Positions 56,470 to 64,000 of a DNA stretch of 64,000 nt are shown in pieces. Source of the DNA: Plebeiibacterium marinum (GTDB taxonomy: Bacteria > Bacteroidota > Bacteroidia > Bacteroidales > Marinilabiliaceae); NCBI RefSeq assembly GCF_026013615.1, contig NZ_JAPDPI010000001.1, positions 1 to 64,000 of the forward strand. Reading direction: 5' to 3'. Made by a program: the position numbers and the translations under genes. The notes beneath the pieces are model-generated. The model saw only the letters and a program-made list of their open reading frames with translations. It searched no databases and was not told the DNA's origin. The number at the start of each line of letters is the position of its first letter. The stretch's first letter is position 1.

Positions 56470-57075
56470 ATGCTCGACTCTGACATTATAAAGCTAATTA
56501 TCAACGGAAATACTGATAAATACCGTGTACTTGTACAGAAATATCAAGACCGGGTTTTTCATGTTTGCATGGGATATGTTCACAATGAGGATGATGCCAA
56601 TGACTTAACTCAGGAGACTTTTATTAAAGCCTACCTGAGTTTAAACACATTTAAATTCAAATCGTCCTTTGCAACATGGATTTACCGTATTGCTGTTAAT
56701 ATTTGCCTAAATTATATCAGAAAGAAAAAAGGGAATATCATTGACCGGATTGAAAATGCAATAGATTCTGTCACCTCTAACCACAAATTACAGATTCCAG
56801 ATTACTCAAATCCGGAAGAAATTTTAATTACCGAAGAACATAAGAAGGTTATTTTTATTGAAATTGACAGGCTTTCACCAAAGCAAAAAACTGCTTTTAT
56901 TTTAAGTAAGTATGATGAACTACCTCAAAAGGAGATTGCTGAAATTATGCAAATTACCGAAGGTGCAGTGGAATCATTAATACAGCGGGCAAAAACTAAT
57001 TTACAAAAGCGGTTAAAAAACAAAATAAACCAAAGTAACGATACCACCCTACAGATGATTTTAATGTGTTTTTAA
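56470..57075 (+). CDS. ECF-type RNA polymerase sigma factor
   Basis: 201 residues. Sigma region 2 spans about 15-85 ('VHNEDDANDLTQETFIKAYL', 'FATWIYRIAVNICLNYIRK') and region 4 about 120-180 ('LSPKQKTAFILSKYDELPQK', 'ITEGAVESLIQRAKTNLQKR'). There is no region 3, so it is ECF. A zf-HC2 anti-sigma gene lies 185 nt downstream, followed by a metal-sensor-like periplasmic protein; together they look like a surface-stress or metal-responsive module. A weak -7 (TACATTTA near 56443) precedes it. Confidence 0.95.
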   Translation: MLDSDIIKLIINGNTDKYRVLVQKYQDRVFHVCMGYVHNEDDANDLTQETFIKAYLSLNTFKFKSSFATWIYRIAVNICLNYIRKKKGNIIDRIENAIDSVTSNHKLQIPDYSNPEEILITEEHKKVIFIEIDRLSPKQKTAFILSKYDELPQKEIAEIMQITEGAVESLIQRAKTNLQKRLKNKINQSNDTTLQMILMCF

Positions 57076-57260
57076 TTTATTAACACACAACACCCTTCCA
57101 TTATCTCCTATCTTTCAACCAACTACAGCCACACTACTTTTTTTTAAAAAAAAACATCACCCTACCCGTAGGAAATCTTTCCAACTAGTGTCTAACTTAT
57201 AAAATCAATTGGTTTTAAACTATATCTATTCAATATAGTCTAATAAAAAAACGCTTAAAA

Positions 57261-57710
57261 ATGAATTGTGCATCATGTCAAAAAAAATTGGATTTATACA
57301 TCTCAGGAAATTTGCCAGGGGATGTAAAAAAAAGTGTCAGGACTCATCTTAAAGAGTGCCATCAATGCCACAAAACATATGCTACTATACTTATGGCGGA
57401 AAAAATTATCAACCAGGAGAAAGTTTTACAATCCAATCCATTTCTTGCAACAAGAGTAATGAATCAGATTGAATTGAAGGATGAAGGTTTTTATGCCACT
57501 CCCGGATATAGCATTTTTCGCCTATTGCAACCTGCGGCATTAACCGCATCAATTGTTTTGGCTTTGTTTATTGGGATATATGCCGGCAATAGTTTACCAA
57601 CAACAACAGCCCAAAACAGAGTTCCTGAAGAACTTATGCTAATGGATGATGCATCCATGGAGTCTTTAAATTTAATATTATCAGTTGAAGAAATAAGAGA
57701 CAATAGATAA
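57261..57710 (+). CDS. Anti-sigma factor with zf-HC2 domain
   Basis: 149 residues. The N-terminal zinc finger shows Cys3/Cys6 and His29-x3-Cys33-x2-Cys36 ('THLKECHQCHKTY'), the ZAS pattern that clamps ECF sigma factors. One transmembrane helix, 'LTASIVLALFIGIYAGNSL', at about 94-112 places a short C-terminal segment in the periplasm. It follows the sigma gene and precedes a CnrX/Spy-like periplasmic protein, 28 nt away, that probably senses or tunes the response. Confidence 0.9.
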   Translation: MNCASCQKKLDLYISGNLPGDVKKSVRTHLKECHQCHKTYATILMAEKIINQEKVLQSNPFLATRVMNQIELKDEGFYATPGYSIFRLLQPAALTASIVLALFIGIYAGNSLPTTTAQNRVPEELMLMDDASMESLNLILSVEEIRDNR

Positions 57711-57738
57711 AGCGCTTATTTATTCTTAATATACAATT

Positions 57739-58311
57739 ATGAACAAAAACTCTTCAAGAATATTGATATATGCAGTCATCTTTCTGGCTGTTTTGAACGT
57801 GACTACTTTTATATCTATTGGTATCAATGTTCGTAACACAAAAAAAGAACTGCCTTATGCTTCAAATAATGAAATTAAAACTGCCCAAAACTTTAATGGC
57901 AGGTATTTCAGGGATAAATTAAAATTAATCCCTACTCAAATGGATAGCTTCAGGATAGTTAACAATCAGTTCAGATCTCAAGCGCGCAGGATTAACGACG
58001 ATCTCAACTTACTTCGTTCAAATATGATGAACGAAATGAAAAGAGCTTATCCTGACACCATAAAACTCATGGTTCAATCAGACTCTGTTGGAATGATGCA
58101 TGCCGGACTAAAAAAACTGACATACAAATATTACCTGGGAATAAAAAGCATTTGCTCAGAAGAGCAAGCTTCTGAACTCAATAATATTTTTGAACAGTTC
58201 TTTAATGCCGACAAACATCATCGCAAACATAACCAGGGCTCCAACCGCAGAGGGTCAGGAAAAGGCTTTGGAAAATACAACAATAGAAAGAACAATGATT
58301 CTATTAATTAA
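57739..58311 (+). CDS. CnrX/Spy-like periplasmic sensor protein
   Basis: 190 residues. A single N-terminal membrane anchor, 'ILIYAVIFLAVLNVTTFISI', then a helical hairpin periplasmic domain: 'FRDKLKLIPTQMDSFRIVNN' (the L-x-L-T/P-x-Q motif of the CpxP/Spy/CnrX group), 'RINDDLNLLRSNMMNEMKRA' and 'SICSEEQASELNNIFEQFF'. The His/Lys/Arg-rich tail ('KHHRKHNQGSNRRGSGKGFG') could bind metal. Such proteins commonly follow sigma/anti-sigma pairs and act as metal sensors or chaperones. Ligand unknown. Confidence 0.8.
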   Translation: MNKNSSRILIYAVIFLAVLNVTTFISIGINVRNTKKELPYASNNEIKTAQNFNGRYFRDKLKLIPTQMDSFRIVNNQFRSQARRINDDLNLLRSNMMNEMKRAYPDTIKLMVQSDSVGMMHAGLKKLTYKYYLGIKSICSEEQASELNNIFEQFFNADKHHRKHNQGSNRRGSGKGFGKYNNRKNNDSIN

Positions 58312-58329
58312 ACTTTAAAAATTAAAACA

Positions 58330-58719
58330 ATGAAAACAAGATTAATATTTTCAGCAATAGCATTATTTGCAATAGTATCATTAAGCAATGCTCAAACCAA
58401 CACAGAACCAACCGAAAAAAAGAACACTACACAACAATTTATTGATAAAGATAATGATGGCGTATGTGATCACTATGAAAGCAGGCAGGAGAATGGTCAG
58501 GGAATGGCATATCGCAGAGGCAATGGCAATAACAATACAGGCACGAACGGACAATACTGCAGACATAGAAACCGCAACGGAAACAATAATTACTGTAAAA
58601 AAGGCTATGGATACGGCAAAAATTCTATGAAGCATAACAAAGATATGAACAGACCAAAACTTGGTCAAGGGCAATTTGTTGACGCCAACAATAACGGAGT
58701 TTGCGATAATAGAGAATAG
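58330..58719 (+). CDS. Small secreted protein with EF-hand-like DxDxDG motifs
   Basis: 129 residues. Signal peptide MKTRLIFSAIALFAIVSLSNAQ. Two calcium-loop-like motifs, 'FIDKDNDGVCDHYESRQ' and 'FVDANNNGVCDNRE', flank an Asn/Gly/Lys/Arg/Tyr-rich low-complexity centre with several Cys ('NGQYCRHRNRNGNNNYCKKG'). Each loop carries a Cys (GVCD). Probably periplasmic or surface metal-binding. It is the last gene of the sigma-factor module, 18 nt after the CnrX-like gene. Confidence 0.8.
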   Translation: MKTRLIFSAIALFAIVSLSNAQTNTEPTEKKNTTQQFIDKDNDGVCDHYESRQENGQGMAYRRGNGNNNTGTNGQYCRHRNRNGNNNYCKKGYGYGKNSMKHNKDMNRPKLGQGQFVDANNNGVCDNRE

Positions 58720-58807: not shown

Positions 58808-59053
58808 ATGAAAGTCTCGAATAATATATCAATCAGCAAATCAGGGTTTGTATTTGACTCTAAAACTGGAGAATCATACTCATTGAATGGTATTGCAAAA
58901 GAAATTATGGAACTTTTGGTAGAGGGGCGCTCTGAAGAAGAGATTATAGAATATATCACTACAAAATATGATGTATCACCAGAATTATTCGCCCGTCATT
59001 TAGACGATTATATACAAATGCTCTCTCATTTCAACTTAACGGAAAACGAATAA
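58808..59053 (+). CDS. PqqD family protein
   Basis: 81 residues with the winged-helix-like PqqD fold: 'SKSGFVFDSKTGESYSLNGI', 'AKEIMELLVEGRSEEEIIEY' and 'YDVSPELFARHLDDYIQML'. PqqD and related RRE domains bind precursor peptides for modifying enzymes in RiPP pathways, and similar free-standing proteins occur in other contexts. Here it is separated by 3 nt from an ATP-grasp ligase gene, so the two are surely co-expressed. No precursor peptide was recognised nearby. Confidence 0.88.
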   Translation: MKVSNNISISKSGFVFDSKTGESYSLNGIAKEIMELLVEGRSEEEIIEYITTKYDVSPELFARHLDDYIQMLSHFNLTENE

Positions 59054-59056
59054 TCC

Positions 59057-60103
59057 ATGGACAAGTTAAAAATAACAGTAGCCATAACAGGGTTAAACAA
59101 CACCGATAATCCCGGTCCTGGCATCCCCGTAATCCGTGGGCTAAAGGATTCCGAATTACTGGATGTAAAAGTTATTGGTTTAGCGTACGAGAACCTGGAA
59201 CCCGGTATTCATATGCACGACCATGTAGATGTTAGCTATATGATCCCCTACCCATCTTCGGGTACAGAAGCTTACTTAAACCGCATTTTAGAAATCCACC
59301 AGGAGGAGCACATTGATTTGATTATTCCAAACCTGGATGCTGAACTATATACTTTTATAAAACTTGAAAGCATACTACAAAAGCACAATATAAAAACTTA
59401 TTTACCAAGTTTTCAGCAGCTTGATGAAAGAAACAAAGGAAACCTGGAAAACTATGGTAAGAAATACAACATTAATGTGCCCAAAGGAACTACTATAACA
59501 TCATACCATGAAATAAACCATCTTAAAGAGGAATTTGATTATCCCATATTGGTTAAGGGTAAGTTTTATGACGCATATGTTGCTTATAGTAAGGAGGAAG
59601 TAATCTCTCATTTTAATAAAATCAGTGCCAAATGGGGGCTTCCTGTCATTATCCAGGAGTATGTAAAGGGAACTGAGGTTAACGTGGTAGCCCTTGGCGA
59701 TGGAAAGGGCAATACTATTGCCGCCATTCCAATGCGAAAGCAATATATAACCGACAAAGGTAAAGCCTGGGGAGGAGTGACATTAAATGACGATAAACTA
59801 TTAACCATCACCCGCAACCTGATCAAAGACTCTGCCTGGAAAGGAGGCATGGAACTAGAAATGATCAGAACCAACGATGACAAATACTACCTGATAGAAA
59901 TCAACCCCAGGATTCCGGCTTGGGTTTACCTGGCCGTTGGAGCAGGCCAAAATATCCCCGAAGCCCTTGCCTTACTAGCCATGGGAAAAGAAGTAAAACC
60001 CATGTTTAACTATGAAATAGGGAAAATATTTATACGGTATTCTTACGATTTAATTGGAGATATGGCCGACCTGGAAAAAATTTCAATTCAGGGGAAGATA
60101 TAG
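59057..60103 (+). CDS. ATP-grasp ligase (CarB/PylC-like)
   Basis: 348 residues. The N-terminal Rossmann-like domain begins 'ITVAITGLNNTDNPGPGIPV'. The ATP-grasp domain (about 120-310) contains 'YPILVKGKFYDAYVAYSKEE', 'VIIQEYVKGTEVNVVALGDG' and the metal site 'YYLIEINPRIPAWVYLAVGA' (Glu-x-Asn). These enzymes join a carboxylate to an amine or thiol through an acyl phosphate. With a PqqD protein before it and a PLP decarboxylase after it, a peptide- or amino-acid-derived product is likely, but the substrates are unknown. Confidence 0.85.
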   Translation: MDKLKITVAITGLNNTDNPGPGIPVIRGLKDSELLDVKVIGLAYENLEPGIHMHDHVDVSYMIPYPSSGTEAYLNRILEIHQEEHIDLIIPNLDAELYTFIKLESILQKHNIKTYLPSFQQLDERNKGNLENYGKKYNINVPKGTTITSYHEINHLKEEFDYPILVKGKFYDAYVAYSKEEVISHFNKISAKWGLPVIIQEYVKGTEVNVVALGDGKGNTIAAIPMRKQYITDKGKAWGGVTLNDDKLLTITRNLIKDSAWKGGMELEMIRTNDDKYYLIEINPRIPAWVYLAVGAGQNIPEALALLAMGKEVKPMFNYEIGKIFIRYSYDLIGDMADLEKISIQGKI

Positions 60104-60171
60104 ATTGGAGAACAAAATTCTTTGGACTATTAATAGTACAAAGCATCATGTAAATCAAAATCAAAAAAACA

Positions 60172-61536
60172 ATGCAAAAAATACCATACGAAAAACCGGT
60201 TATCAACAGGATCAATGCCGGTGTGCCAGATAAATTCGGGATGAAATCGAGAATTCAACCGATTACCCAAATTGATGATGTTACAGTTAGAGACCTGGTT
60301 CAACAATATGGATCACCTTTATATGTACTATCCGAAAAAACCATCAGAAACACCTATAAAAAGGCTGTTGATGCATTCAAAACCAGGTATCCCAAAGTTC
60401 AGTTTGCCTGGTCGTACAAAACCAACTATTTAAATGCTGTTTGCCAGGTTTTCCACCAGGAAGGATCCTGGGCTGAGGTGGTTTCCGGGTTCGAATACGA
60501 AAAAGCGATTGCCAATGGTGTTCCGGGAGAAAAAATCATTTTCAACGGCCCCGATAAAACACGTAAAGACCTGACTGTAGCAATTGATAATGGCTCACTG
60601 ATACACATTGATCATCTGGATGAGTTTTATGAAATAGCATCCATTGTAAAAAACTCTGACAAGAAGGCTAAAGTTGCCATCAGGATCAATTTAGATGCCG
60701 GCATTTATCCACAATGGTTCCGCTTTGGATTCAACTTTGAAAACGGCGAAGCCTGGAATGCCATCAACAAAATTATGCAAACCCCCGGATTTGAATTACA
60801 GGGACTACACACCCATATCGGAACCTATATAATTTCACCCCAGGCCTATGGTATTGCTACAACCAAATTAGCACAGCTAACGGTAAGAATTCACCATAAA
60901 TACAATCATCACATTCAGTATATTGATATGGGTGGTGGTTTTGCCTCTAAAAACACGCTAAAAGGAGCTTACTTACCAGGAACTGACACTTGCCCTGGCT
61001 TTGATGATTATGCAGAACATATAACAGAAGCCCTTCATAATTCAGATATTCCTTATGACCATATGCCAACCTTATTTCTGGAAACAGGAAGAGCTTTAAT
61101 TGATGATGCAGGTTTTTTATTAGGTTCTGTAATTGCCAATAAAAGACTGCCTGATGGAAGGAAGGCTTTGATCATTGATATAGGCATCAACCTGCTGTTT
61201 ACTTCATTCTGGTATGAACACAATATTGTTCCGGCCCAACACACACAGCTCGACATGGAGAACACTACTATTTACGGTCCGCTTTGTATGAATATTGATA
61301 TTATCCGTGAAGCCATCAATTTCCCGGTAATGGAAAAAGGCGAACATGTTGTCATCAACAGAATAGGAGCATATAACATGACACAATGGTTGCAGTTTAT
61401 TAATTATCGACCCAAGGTGGTAATGATTGACACAAAAGGCAATACCCATATTGTCAGAGAGGAGGAAACCTCCGAAACCATGAATCAGTTAGACAGGGTG
61501 CCGGAACACCTAAAATCAGTTAACAATGATCATTGA
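60172..61536 (+). CDS. PLP-dependent fold-III decarboxylase (DAP/ornithine/arginine decarboxylase family)
   Basis: 454 residues: a TIM-barrel Orn/DAP/Arg decarboxylase. The Schiff-base Lys is in 'FAWSYKTNYLNAVC' near residue 83. 'GLHTHIGTYI' and 'IDMGGGFASKNTLKG' contact PLP phosphate, and 'LFLETGRALIDDAG' matches the usual EPGR region. Near the C-terminus 'YGPLCMNIDII' replaces the usual GPxCxSxD. It differs from housekeeping LysA in these motifs, so decarboxylation of an unusual amino acid or peptide adduct is plausible. It follows the ATP-grasp gene by 68 nt. Confidence 0.87.
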   Translation: MQKIPYEKPVINRINAGVPDKFGMKSRIQPITQIDDVTVRDLVQQYGSPLYVLSEKTIRNTYKKAVDAFKTRYPKVQFAWSYKTNYLNAVCQVFHQEGSWAEVVSGFEYEKAIANGVPGEKIIFNGPDKTRKDLTVAIDNGSLIHIDHLDEFYEIASIVKNSDKKAKVAIRINLDAGIYPQWFRFGFNFENGEAWNAINKIMQTPGFELQGLHTHIGTYIISPQAYGIATTKLAQLTVRIHHKYNHHIQYIDMGGGFASKNTLKGAYLPGTDTCPGFDDYAEHITEALHNSDIPYDHMPTLFLETGRALIDDAGFLLGSVIANKRLPDGRKALIIDIGINLLFTSFWYEHNIVPAQHTQLDMENTTIYGPLCMNIDIIREAINFPVMEKGEHVVINRIGAYNMTQWLQFINYRPKVVMIDTKGNTHIVREEETSETMNQLDRVPEHLKSVNNDH

Positions 61537-61664
61537 TCAATTAACAGGACAACAAAACAAAGAACTTACATTAAAAAAGAGGTAAGGCGTAAGGCGTGAG
61601 CAATGAGAGGAAAGATGGAATTAGATGCTTTGCGACTTACTTACAATAATTAAACAAAAAAATC

Positions 61665-62501
61665 ATGAACAACAATAAATTTAACTGGAGGAGTTTTATA
61701 AGTTTTGGACTAGCCATTGCGTTTATTGCCATTTTTGTAACCGGAATTGTGCTTTACATTGCTCCCCCCGGAAGAATAGCGCATTGGACAAACTGGAAAA
61801 TATGGGCATTAACAAAAGAAGAATGGCAAGCCATACACATCACATTCTCCTTAATGTTTGTCATCCTTTCTATTTTCCACCTATTCTCAATAAACTGGAA
61901 AGTTTTTATATCATACATCAAATCAAAAACTTCTGCAGGAATAAACAAAAAGAAAGAGTTGGCTACATCAACTATAGTTTCGCTAATCGTTTTAACGGGA
62001 ACCATATATGCCGTTCCACCTTTTAGTTCCGTGATTGAATTAAGCGAATATTTTAAAGAAACCTGGGAAACAACAGATTCTGAACCTCCTGCCCCACACA
62101 CTGAACTGCTCTCTCTTGAACAGCTCGCTATAAAACTTGAACATATTAGCCTTGAACAAATTGAAAACAAACTAAAGCATAGCAATATAAAATACAACAG
62201 TACTACAGAAAGCCTAACCGAAATTGGTAAGCATAACGACATGCCTCCTATGGATATTTACAATAAAATAGTAAACGGTAATAGCAATTTAAAACAGGGA
62301 ACTAACATAAGTGGCAAAGCTGGTGCCGGCATGGGCAGGAAGACTCTGGAACAATTGGCTGTTGATTACAACAAAGACATTCAGGACCTGATCAATATTT
62401 TAGAAAGTCATCATATCAATGCTACTAAAGATCAAACATTAAGATCTATTGCCGAAGAACACGATATGGCGACCAGGGATCTGGTGGAGATGCTAAAGTA
62501 G
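61665..62501 (+). CDS. DUF4405-like membrane protein with C-terminal helical repeats
   Basis: 278 residues. Three clear membrane helices ('FGLAIAFIAIFVTGIVLYI', 'IHITFSLMFVILSIFHLF', 'TIVSLIVLTGTIYAVPPF') with His in 'WQAIHITF' and 'FHLFSINWK' fit a DUF4405-type cytochrome-b-like core. The C-terminal 130 residues hold two copies of a helical repeat, recognisable from 'SLEQLAIKLEHISLEQIENK' and 'TLEQLAVDYNKDIQDLINIL', each followed by an 'H(N/D)MPPMD/H-D-M-A-T-R-D' segment. Redox or scaffold function is inferred. It lies between the decarboxylase and the urea-transporter fusion. Confidence 0.72.
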   Translation: MNNNKFNWRSFISFGLAIAFIAIFVTGIVLYIAPPGRIAHWTNWKIWALTKEEWQAIHITFSLMFVILSIFHLFSINWKVFISYIKSKTSAGINKKKELATSTIVSLIVLTGTIYAVPPFSSVIELSEYFKETWETTDSEPPAPHTELLSLEQLAIKLEHISLEQIENKLKHSNIKYNSTTESLTEIGKHNDMPPMDIYNKIVNGNSNLKQGTNISGKAGAGMGRKTLEQLAVDYNKDIQDLINILESHHINATKDQTLRSIAEEHDMATRDLVEMLK

Positions 62502-62564
62502 CTTGTAGCAAATAACGATTAGTAATTAGGACGCTACATTTTAGGATTTACAAGATTTAAGCAA

Positions 62565-62582
62565 TCTTGATACATGATACTT
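62565..62582. repeat. Second copy of the AAGTATCAAGTA-type arm
   Basis: TCTTGATACATGATACTT matches the right arm at 58766-58783 (TCTTGCTACTTGATACTT) at 16 of 18 positions. Together the copies bracket the pqqD to DUF4405-like genes. Confidence 0.6.
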
Positions 62583-62643
62583 ATACCTTGTAACTTCTTC
62601 TTTTTACTAAAGACTAACAGCTAAAAGCCAATTATATACAAAA

Positions 62644-64000
62644 ATGAATCAAATAATAATAAATATCAGAGAAAACAGGGTGCACTTTTGGGATAGCATA
62701 CTAAACAGCTACTCCCAGATATTTTTCTCTACTCATAAATCATTTGCTATTTTAATTATGCTGGTGTCATTTATTGATATCTACACTGGTTTAATGGGCG
62801 CTTTAGCTGTTATCACCACTTCTTTAGCAGCATTTTCACTAAACCTCAACAAGCCCACTATTGCCAAGGGATTATTTGGTTTTAATGGTTTGTTGGTGGG
62901 ACTGGGCTTGGGCATTTATTATACTCTAAGCTGGCACCTGGTATTTATTATTATTCTATCTGCTATTTTCACTTTATTGGTTTCGGTTTCTTTACAAGGT
63001 GTAATAGGAAAATATCACCTCCCCTATCTAAGTGTACCTTTTTTATTAGGGATGTGGACTTTTACAATTGCAGCAAAACATTTTGAGGCACTGGGTATCA
63101 GTGAAAGGGGAATTTATTATATGAATGAACTGTATGTGGTTGGAGGGCACTCTCTGGTTAAAGTATATGAATTCTTTAACCAGGCAGAAATCCCTTCCAT
63201 AATCAAATCATATTTTATTTCACTAAGCGCCATATTGTTTCAATATAATGTATTGTCTGGTTTCATTATCGCTGTAGGACTATTGTTATTTAGCCGTATT
63301 GCTTTTGTGTTATCTATTTTGGGTTTTTCAATTGCTTTTGGGTTTTACAATATGATTGATGCCAATATTACTATGATAGAATATAGTTACATTGGTTTTA
63401 ATTATATACTGACATCCATAGCCATTGGCGGATTTTTCCTTATTCCTTCAGCGCGATCCTTTATCAGTGTTGTTTTATTGGTTCCTTTAGTGGCAATACT
63501 TTCCATAAGCCTGAGTACCATTTTCTACTATTACCACCTGGCCATATATTCACTTCCCTTTAACGCTGTTGTTTTGCTGTTTTTATACGTACTTAAATTC
63601 AGGATGACTTATTCCGAAAAGCTCACAGAGGTATATTTTCAATACAATTCTCCTGAAAAAAACCTGTACACCTTTGTCAACAACAAGCAGCGTTACAAAC
63701 ATTTGGATTACATTCCCCTAAAACTTCCTTTCATGGGAAAATGGACTGTTTCGCAAGGACATGACGGGGATTATACACACCAAAACCAATGGCGTCATGC
63801 ATGGGATTTTGTAATAACCAACATAGAAGGGAAACAATTTAGAGGTGAAGGCAATTATGTTGAAGACTATTATTGTTTTAACAAACCGATAACTGCTCCG
63901 GCTGATGGTACAATTGAGGAGGTGGTAAACTATGTAGATGACAACATTATAGGCAATATTAACCTGGAACACAACTGGGGAAACACCATCATTATCAAAC
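62644..64000 (+). CDS. Urea transporter fused to an M23-type peptidase domain (cut by right edge)
   Basis: Open from ATG at 62644 to the window end: 452 codons, no stop. Residues 1-320 are a urea-transporter (UT/SLC14) fold with two repeats: 'GLFGFNGLLVGLGLGIYYTL' and 'LPYLSVPFLLGMWTF', then 'FIIAVGLLLFSRIAFVLSIL' and 'IGFNYILTSIAIGGFFLIP'. After a linker (about 320-355) comes an M23-like start: 'WTVSQGHDGDYTHQNQWRHA' and 'WDFVI', then 'FNKPITAPADGTIEEVVNYV' and 'INLEHNWGNTIIIK'. The first zinc motif (RHAWD) departs from HxxxD, and the last motif lies outside the window. The product presumably links solute transport to an extracytoplasmic peptidase-like domain. Confidence 0.85.
   Translation, partial: MNQIIINIRENRVHFWDSILNSYSQIFFSTHKSFAILIMLVSFIDIYTGLMGALAVITTSLAAFSLNLNKPTIAKGLFGFNGLLVGLGLGIYYTLSWHLVFIIILSAIFTLLVSVSLQGVIGKYHLPYLSVPFLLGMWTFTIAAKHFEALGISERGIYYMNELYVVGGHSLVKVYEFFNQAEIPSIIKSYFISLSAILFQYNVLSGFIIAVGLLLFSRIAFVLSILGFSIAFGFYNMIDANITMIEYSYIGFNYILTSIAIGGFFLIPSARSFISVVLLVPLVAILSISLSTIFYYYHLAIYSLPFNAVVLLFLYVLKFRMTYSEKLTEVYFQYNSPEKNLYTFVNNKQRYKHLDYIPLKLPFMGKWTVSQGHDGDYTHQNQWRHAWDFVITNIEGKQFRGEGNYVEDYYCFNKPITAPADGTIEEVVNYVDDNIIGNINLEHNWGNTIIIK

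Follow-up and report, generated by a model that had tools for sequence, protein, structure and literature searches.

A conserved Bacteroidota gene set in which a PqqD-type protein appears to read a leader-like tail on a decarboxylase

The window analysed here spans positions 1 to 64,000 of a contig 299,892 bases long (NZ_JAPDPI010000001.1) from Plebeiibacterium marinum and ends in a run of five open reading frames (ORFs), all on the + strand, encoding a PqqD-type protein, an ATP-grasp ligase, a pyridoxal phosphate (PLP) decarboxylase (hereafter DEC), a DUF4405 protein and a fusion of a urea-transporter-like (UT) part to an M23 peptidase (UT/M23). A first-pass annotation, made from the sequence of the window alone, had described five same-strand genes separated by gaps of 3, 68, 128 and 142 nucleotides (nt); the ORF coordinates reproduce these gaps, and Pfam matches back all five names. 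PqqD (58808..59053, 81 residues) is of the type that acts as a recognition element (RRE) for ribosomally synthesized and post-translationally modified peptides (RiPPs); it matches Pfam PqqD at 1.5e-10 and, among solved structures, TbiB1 best (4.3e-12). The ATP-grasp ligase (59057..60103, 348 residues) is PRK12767/PylC-N-like, with a Pfam ATPgrasp_Ter match of 1.1e-10, and DEC (60172..61536, 454 residues) is a fold III, FslC/FigC-like enzyme (Orn_Arg_deC_N, 6.7e-31). The DUF4405 membrane protein (61665..62501; Pfam DUF4405, 1.1e-15) precedes the UT/M23 gene, which begins at 62644 and is truncated by the window edge at 64000 after the first 452 of its 739 residues; it is complete on the contig, running to position 64863. 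Its UT match is 6e-59, and the full gene matches Peptidase_M23 at 8e-18. Beyond the window, a gene for a 437-residue protein with a TPR part and a probable barrel (contig 64853-66166) overlaps the end of the UT/M23 gene and is itself overlapped by the gene of a 207-residue TPR protein (contig 66154-66777).

The conserved unit is six genes, namely PqqD, ATP-grasp, DEC, UT/M23, the TPR-barrel protein and the TPR protein, with DUF4405 optional. It was delineated in 96 loci around DEC orthologues, made up of 16 from relatives and the best 80 of 127 related stretches from a scan of 84,980 species; many of these loci stop at contig ends, and L051, L053, L069 and L123 duplicate others. By their labels the 80 loci come from Bacteroidota broadly taken, including single loci from Chlorobiota, Kapabacterium and Balneolaceae. 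By tblastn, the neighbours of DEC include ATP-grasp in 92 loci, UT/M23 in 90, PqqD in 84, the barrel protein in 73 and the TPR protein in 64. The genes are tightly packed: median intergenic distances along the unit are -4 nt from PqqD to ATP-grasp, then 42 and 21 nt, and -13 nt both from UT/M23 to the barrel gene and from there to the TPR gene. In L050 the UT/M23 gene lies on the opposite strand. Given this recurrence across the 96 loci, the grouping is beyond chance. The earlier proposal that the five window genes would be neighbours in related genomes thus held for PqqD, ATP-grasp, DEC and UT/M23 and failed for DUF4405, an accessory gene found by tblastn in only 7 of the 96 loci (two of them in one genome); its five-gene membership also has to admit the two envelope genes outside the window. 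In five of its seven loci (L071, L072, L078, L085 and L093) DUF4405 sits between PqqD and ATP-grasp, and a DUF2202-family gene lies just upstream of PqqD in L071, L078 and L085.

The co-occurrence predicted for Bacteroidota was found on a wider scale as well. Across 296 genomes of the phylum, orthologues of PqqD (2e-13 or better), DEC (1e-80 or better) and UT/M23 (full, split or partial) are confined to an identical 27 genomes, the window's own included. A further 13 genomes hold weak PqqD matches only (2e-9 to 3e-7), and 5 hold the M23 part only.

The nearest solved relative of DEC is an N-citrylornithine decarboxylase: a solved-structure profile search placed 7kh2 first (3.2e-79) and the diaminopimelate decarboxylase (DAPDC) 1twi next (4.6e-59). 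The curated models for both activities score DEC below their cut-offs, at 218.2 bits for TIGR01048 (lysA; cut-off 297.9) and 222.5 bits for NF041039 (FslC, the N-citrylornithine decarboxylase model; cut-off 500). That DEC is the genome's only lysA, an identity against which the first-pass annotation had warned, was considered and rejected: a lysA lies elsewhere, in another gene that scores 390.8 bits with TIGR01048, above the curated cut-off. The loop at the catalytic Cys reads GPLCMNID in 88 of 90 DEC proteins, the remaining 2 being unmatched by the search, and its equivalent is C-M-Q-H-D in 7kh2 (FigC) and C-E-S-S-D in 1twi. The DEC loop departs from CE(S/T)xD, which we take to be the DAPDC loop motif. 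One study states that changes in the C354 loop provide substrate specificity in FigC, that conjugated amino acids are the substrates of the decarboxylases FigC, SbnH, AcsE, MccE and BtrK, which share a common ancestor with DAPDC, and that BtrK acts on carrier-bound Glu (PMC7857480). Because the FigC-type nearest relatives act on conjugates and DEC has a FigC-like C-M loop, the substrate of DEC is, by analogy, likely to be a conjugated amino acid.

DEC residues 1-30 lie before the region that aligns with FslC and DAPDC. They include a conserved leader-like tail (residues 1-23; 60172..60240) with the consensus MxKxxYERPxIxKINxGxPxKFG, in which one protein in three has Phe in place of Tyr. The window's copy carries the leader motif YEKPVI, an instance of [Y/F]xxPxI (60187..60204), followed by Lys21 (60232..60234) within the segment G-x-x-x-K-F-G. 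The expression [Y/F]xxPx[I/L/V] is present in 90/90 DEC ORFs that clustered, out of 93 non-duplicate loci with the window included (61 Tyr, 29 Phe); it was defined after the tails had been inspected, so that this count describes the tails and is not a test. Lys21 was present in 104/104 tails read from a first slice, and 12 of the 13 that this slice had missed (117 in total) were read later and also have Lys. In an AlphaFold2 model of DEC, where 242 of 454 residues reach a predicted local distance difference test (pLDDT) score of 90, residues 1-25 score below 50, as do the segments 265-270, 341-346, 372-374, 404-409 and 452-454. DEC is probably dimeric, and a tail docked on the partner subunit would for that reason escape the model. 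Conserved yet disordered in this prediction, the tail has the look of a binding peptide. With Tyr, its motif equals the target published for discrete lasso RREs, [Y/W]xxPx[L/V/I/F/A] (PMC13381572), and a W/Y/LxxP-type sequence is the target of RRE groups to which FusE and PqqD belong (PMC12710340). A search of the PDB with the DEC tail alone returned nothing useful.

A short conserved ORF near these genes, which the first-pass annotation had suggested looking for as a precursor, did not emerge: among ORFs of at least 45 residues, PqqD alone forms a recurrent short-ORF family (families in at least 4 loci), and the leader motif sits on DEC itself. The earlier picture of a unit with RRE-type, ligase-type and decarboxylase-type parts therefore stands, without its separate precursor peptide. 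A profile of the tail, run over 16 genomes chosen as carriers of the set, found DEC in 16/16 (worst 1.5e-10) and no other ORF below 0.049, a search that a diverged or very short precursor would escape. Since the profile matched nothing else, the leader seems to be present only on DEC in these genomes.

PqqD scores 41.7 bits with PF05402 (cut-off 23.4), which places it in the PqqD fold family; TbiB1, the closest solved relative of this family, is a lasso RRE. LppB uses N33 to hold the backbone at the leader Pro, and its D70 forms a hydrogen bond with the leader Tyr (PMC13381572). Asn27 of PqqD (58886..58888), taken as the equivalent of N33, is invariant in 72/72 rows, and residue 64 (58997..58999), taken as the equivalent of D70, is His in the window and elsewhere D, N or H, or mostly Y. 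The spacing between them is 37, equal to that between N33 and D70, and a gap-free alignment with TbiB1 has Asp at position 64.

Residue 64 of PqqD covaries with the first motif residue of the DEC tail. In 74 genomes it is D (34), N (8) or H (7) where DEC has Tyr6 and Y (22), S (2) or V (1) where DEC has Phe6, so that it splits Tyr from Phe in 74/74 pairs, with a mutual information of 0.640; a UT column has the next value among those listed, 0.439. As a single-column predictor of Tyr or Phe it reaches 1.0, and the next best of 1,567 columns drawn from PqqD, ATP-grasp, the DEC body and UT (74 to 90 pairs each) reaches 0.937. Concordance extends to 25 of 26 further genomes, some of which are probably of the same species as earlier ones, with the L153 motif read by eye. 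On a tree built without PqqD and without the tail, 2 independent pairs fall on supported branches and 4 on all branches, and the scored pairs are all concordant. Judged by its sequence, PqqD thus qualifies as an RRE through its fold family, its Asn and a D/N/H or Y/S/V site that sorts with the tail, and it appears to read an address label, a leader, grafted onto DEC.

The partner gene of PqqD is ATP-grasp, with a median overlap of 4 nt. The ligase matches PRK12767, CarB and PylC types, and its E281, N283, P284 and R285 are invariant in 22 aligned sequences; in a comparison with graspetide systems, the tail profile found no precursor. Neither an Asn-synthetase-like cyclase nor a leader protease was recognised by sequence among the recurrent neighbours, most of which were unscanned against families.

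At the envelope, the AlphaFold2 model of UT/M23 has a pLDDT of 89, and Foldseek aligns it with SLC14 transporters (TM ~0.8 over the target) and with LytM-type M23 peptidases. The UT part is probably, on this model, a channel, and UT as a urea transporter was a candidate that the fold fits. It was set aside on several altered positions of the dvUT urea site, whose residues we take to be E187, T130, T294, F247, Gln24, Phe27 and Phe80, and TIGR03441 gives 131 bits (cut-off 274.6). The E187 position holds A, S, T or G in 82/82 proteins and never Glu, and Ser stands at T130 in 72/82 and at T294 in 58/82; Phe is kept at positions 27 and 80 in 80/82 and 70/82, Gln24 in 58/82 and F247 in 50/82. Because several of these residues are changed, the channel is probably not for urea; of the urea or amide channel first proposed, the SLC14 fold survives and some of the urea-site residues are missing. 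The M23 residues H379, D388, H463, H496 and H498 are kept in 82/82, with a first His-Asp spacing of 9, where the classical M23 motif has 4. Loop charges favour cytoplasmic N- and C-termini for UT, in agreement with UT-B, whose termini we take to be cytoplasmic. Since this charge distribution places the UT C-terminus in the cytoplasm, the M23 part is predicted to lie there too; counter to that placement, related M23 proteins look secreted or membrane-anchored. A Bacteroidota M23 family related to this part was seen in L250 (1111-2079) and L251-L256, with metal or catalytic His residues seemingly lost in L251 and L252. At locus L140 (genome G065), which is also the sole exception to the Tyr/Phe pairing, the UT/M23 gene is in two pieces. 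The 437-residue protein has an N-terminal TPR part followed by a probable outer-membrane barrel with a conserved C-terminal G-G-L-x-W-x-F, and both it and the TPR protein have apparent N-terminal signal peptides by eye.

Our preferred reading, which we hold to be slightly on the probable side of even, is that the six genes form a biosynthesis and transport unit in which PqqD docks DEC to ATP-grasp and a conjugate is made, decarboxylated and passed across the envelope. PqqD would act in the cytoplasm as a discrete RRE that binds the N-terminal tail of DEC, with no separate precursor, and its docking would hold DEC beside ATP-grasp. ATP-grasp would join an amino acid to a second molecule through an amide bond, and the FigC-like DEC would remove the alpha-carboxyl of the conjugate to give an acylated or aminoacylated amine. 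This small product may then pass the urea-transporter-like channel, with its altered selectivity, be trimmed or gated by the fused M23 part, and cross the pair of TPR protein and outer-membrane barrel. We infer the binding of PqqD to DEC, the partnership with ATP-grasp, the order of the chemistry and the product, next to a unit, motif, covariation and family assignments that were computed; as the direction of transport we prefer export.

Several observations weigh against this reading. The case for docking is computational, with binding and activity predicted only, and sequence cannot reveal the substrates of ATP-grasp. Where Asn27 is invariant here, TbiB1 carries Asp. The published lasso motif begins with Tyr or Trp, and 29 of 90 DEC tails have Phe, absent from that motif; a tail that serves for docking only would not account for the conserved G-x-x-x-K-F-G behind the motif. 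Tyr/Phe changes 4 times on the tree and residue 64 also 4 times, too few for a sign test, and the weight of the covariation for that reason rests on its match with the structural residue of LppB. L140 is discordant, with DEC Phe next to PqqD His. The set is also patchy among relatives: of 61 genomes searched, the window's own among them, 17 have a DEC orthologue (1e-120 or better), and the gene is missing from some members of the same genus. L080 has a tailed DEC, and its 12.4 kb hold none of the other core genes.

An alternative is that the tail is the real substrate, with PqqD presenting it, ATP-grasp loading an amino acid (e.g. on Lys21) and DEC decarboxylating the tethered residue, after which M23 may cut the tail. 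In its logic such a self-loading carrier arm would resemble BtrI/BtrK. RREs normally deliver substrates for modification, Lys21 is invariant in the 104 tails first read and lies with G-x-x-x-K-F-G outside the known RRE motif, the tail is flexible in the model, and BtrK acts on carrier-bound Glu (PMC7857480). One 450-residue protein per product would, however, be costly for such an arm, for which direct signs of modification, a carrier domain and an evident release step are all missing; we regard it as unlikely but worth keeping in view. A bolder version, in which DEC is its own precursor, ATP-grasp loading the tail at Lys21 or nearby, DEC converting the tethered residue and M23 releasing it into a repurposed urea channel, we rate a shade lower again; if true, it would be a self-carrier pathway outside both RiPP and carrier-protein biosynthesis.

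Scavenging would run the unit in the other direction, the barrel and TPR proteins taking up an envelope amide or peptide, a periplasmic M23 trimming it, UT importing it and the enzymes converting it. The secreted or membrane-anchored appearance of the M23 relatives and the metal and catalytic residues kept in 82/82 speak for such a route; the charge distribution that places M23 in the cytoplasm and an ATP-consuming ligase, which suggests synthesis, speak against it, and no TonB-receptor-like family recurs among the neighbour families (single lookalikes lie upstream in L105 and in L119). We consider it doubtful. That a conventional RiPP pathway is at work, its separate precursor lying elsewhere in the genome and its leader copied by the DEC tail, is improbable: PqqD together with ATP-grasp resembles RiPP loci, but the next best match to the tail profile after DEC in the 16 set-carrying genomes is 0.05 and no small ORF family but PqqD recurs among ORFs of at least 45 residues, searches that would miss a diverged or very short precursor. 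That DEC is an ordinary lysine or polyamine decarboxylase amid unrelated neighbours is scarcely credible, for its 218 bits with the lysA model TIGR01048 fall under the cut-off of 297.9 and the other gene's 390.8, and co-occurrence and gene order contradict it.

Upstream of PqqD, at 56470..58719 on the + strand, lie genes for an extracytoplasmic function (ECF) sigma factor, an anti-sigma factor, a small protein anchored in the membrane and an EF-hand-like, Asp-rich protein; the last two are small and look exported. The third protein of this block has no Pfam match, and a relative of it in L054 matches Metal_resist at 6.3e-7; the EF-hand match of the fourth is only 0.083. A sigma factor occurs in 7 of the 96 loci and the block is not conserved with the set; relatives of it were seen in few loci only, on the opposite strand in L054 and L057. 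It is possible that the sigma/anti-sigma block is a local regulator. An AraC-type regulator stands in 21 loci (e.g. L074 6828-7439, L075 686-1279), and in 13 of these it is the first gene upstream on the same strand. Its front part is HMA-like by eye, with the cysteines gone in several members, and the one member scanned matches no HMA family; the metal theme that this raised is kept as a lead only, on the grounds of those lost cysteines and that missing match. A LytTR response regulator occurs in 14 loci and a histidine kinase in 13. A protein of ~260 residues in 11 loci (L102 8196-8975; L055, L059, L060 and others) often lies between ATP-grasp and DEC, and Por_Secre_tail was found in the one member scanned. 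For anti-phage defence, PADLOC matched 0 of 7 proteins.

In the search for modified peptides, RREs are used as a hallmark. As far as the sequences tell, the set described here is without the separate precursor that a RiPP cluster should have, and it lies outside both LysA and the urea-site pattern. The set seems to represent a new form of RRE-leader recognition, in which the leader is fixed to a metabolic enzyme, in a pathway of which no description was found. The first-pass annotation had not recognised a described pathway, and literature searches, from which most subscription papers were excluded, agree in having found none with this gene combination; nor is the set described in the accessible parts of the graspetide paper PMC8939145 or of PMC10352776. 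If the tail is read by PqqD, RRE-leader pairs would also be enzyme-assembly tags, and nature would have supplied a swap in a testable pair, Tyr with Asp, Asn or His and Phe mostly with Tyr. The distribution suggests a small molecule in about 9% of the sampled genomes of the phylum (27/296, own included), together with a urea-transporter-like channel that is probably not for urea.

Among known systems, the discrete RREs of lasso peptides and LPPs (TbiB1, FusB1 and LppB) share the PqqD fold family with the window's PqqD, and also the YxxPx[I/L/V] target; LppB further has the same Asn and the same 37-residue spacing to the Tyr-reading position. The set differs from them in carrying the motif on an enzyme N-terminus, with no separate precursor found, in a Phe motif variant that pairs with Tyr in the RRE, and in Asn27 where TbiB1 has Asp. 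FigC/FslC, SbnH, AcsE, MccE and BtrK are, like DEC, fold III decarboxylases, and the C-M loop of FigC recurs in DEC; unlike the FigC/FslC group, DEC has an N-terminal tail, an ATP-grasp partner instead of an NRPS-independent siderophore (NIS) synthetase, and an FslC score under the cut-off. In butirosin biosynthesis, BtrI and BtrK likewise pair a small partner protein with a fold III decarboxylase, whereas PqqD is not an acyl carrier and DEC carries the tail; an ATP-grasp enzyme, BtrJ, reportedly belongs to that pathway and can be likened to the one here. With the SLC14/UT channels (dvUT, UT-B), UT shares the fold and largely the Phe 27/80 positions, and it departs from them in its fused M23 part and its altered E187, T130, T294 and F247 positions. 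That M23 part shares its fold and its zinc and catalytic residues with the LytM-type peptidases, and is set apart from them by its fusion to a channel, its spacing of 9 and its predicted cytoplasmic location.

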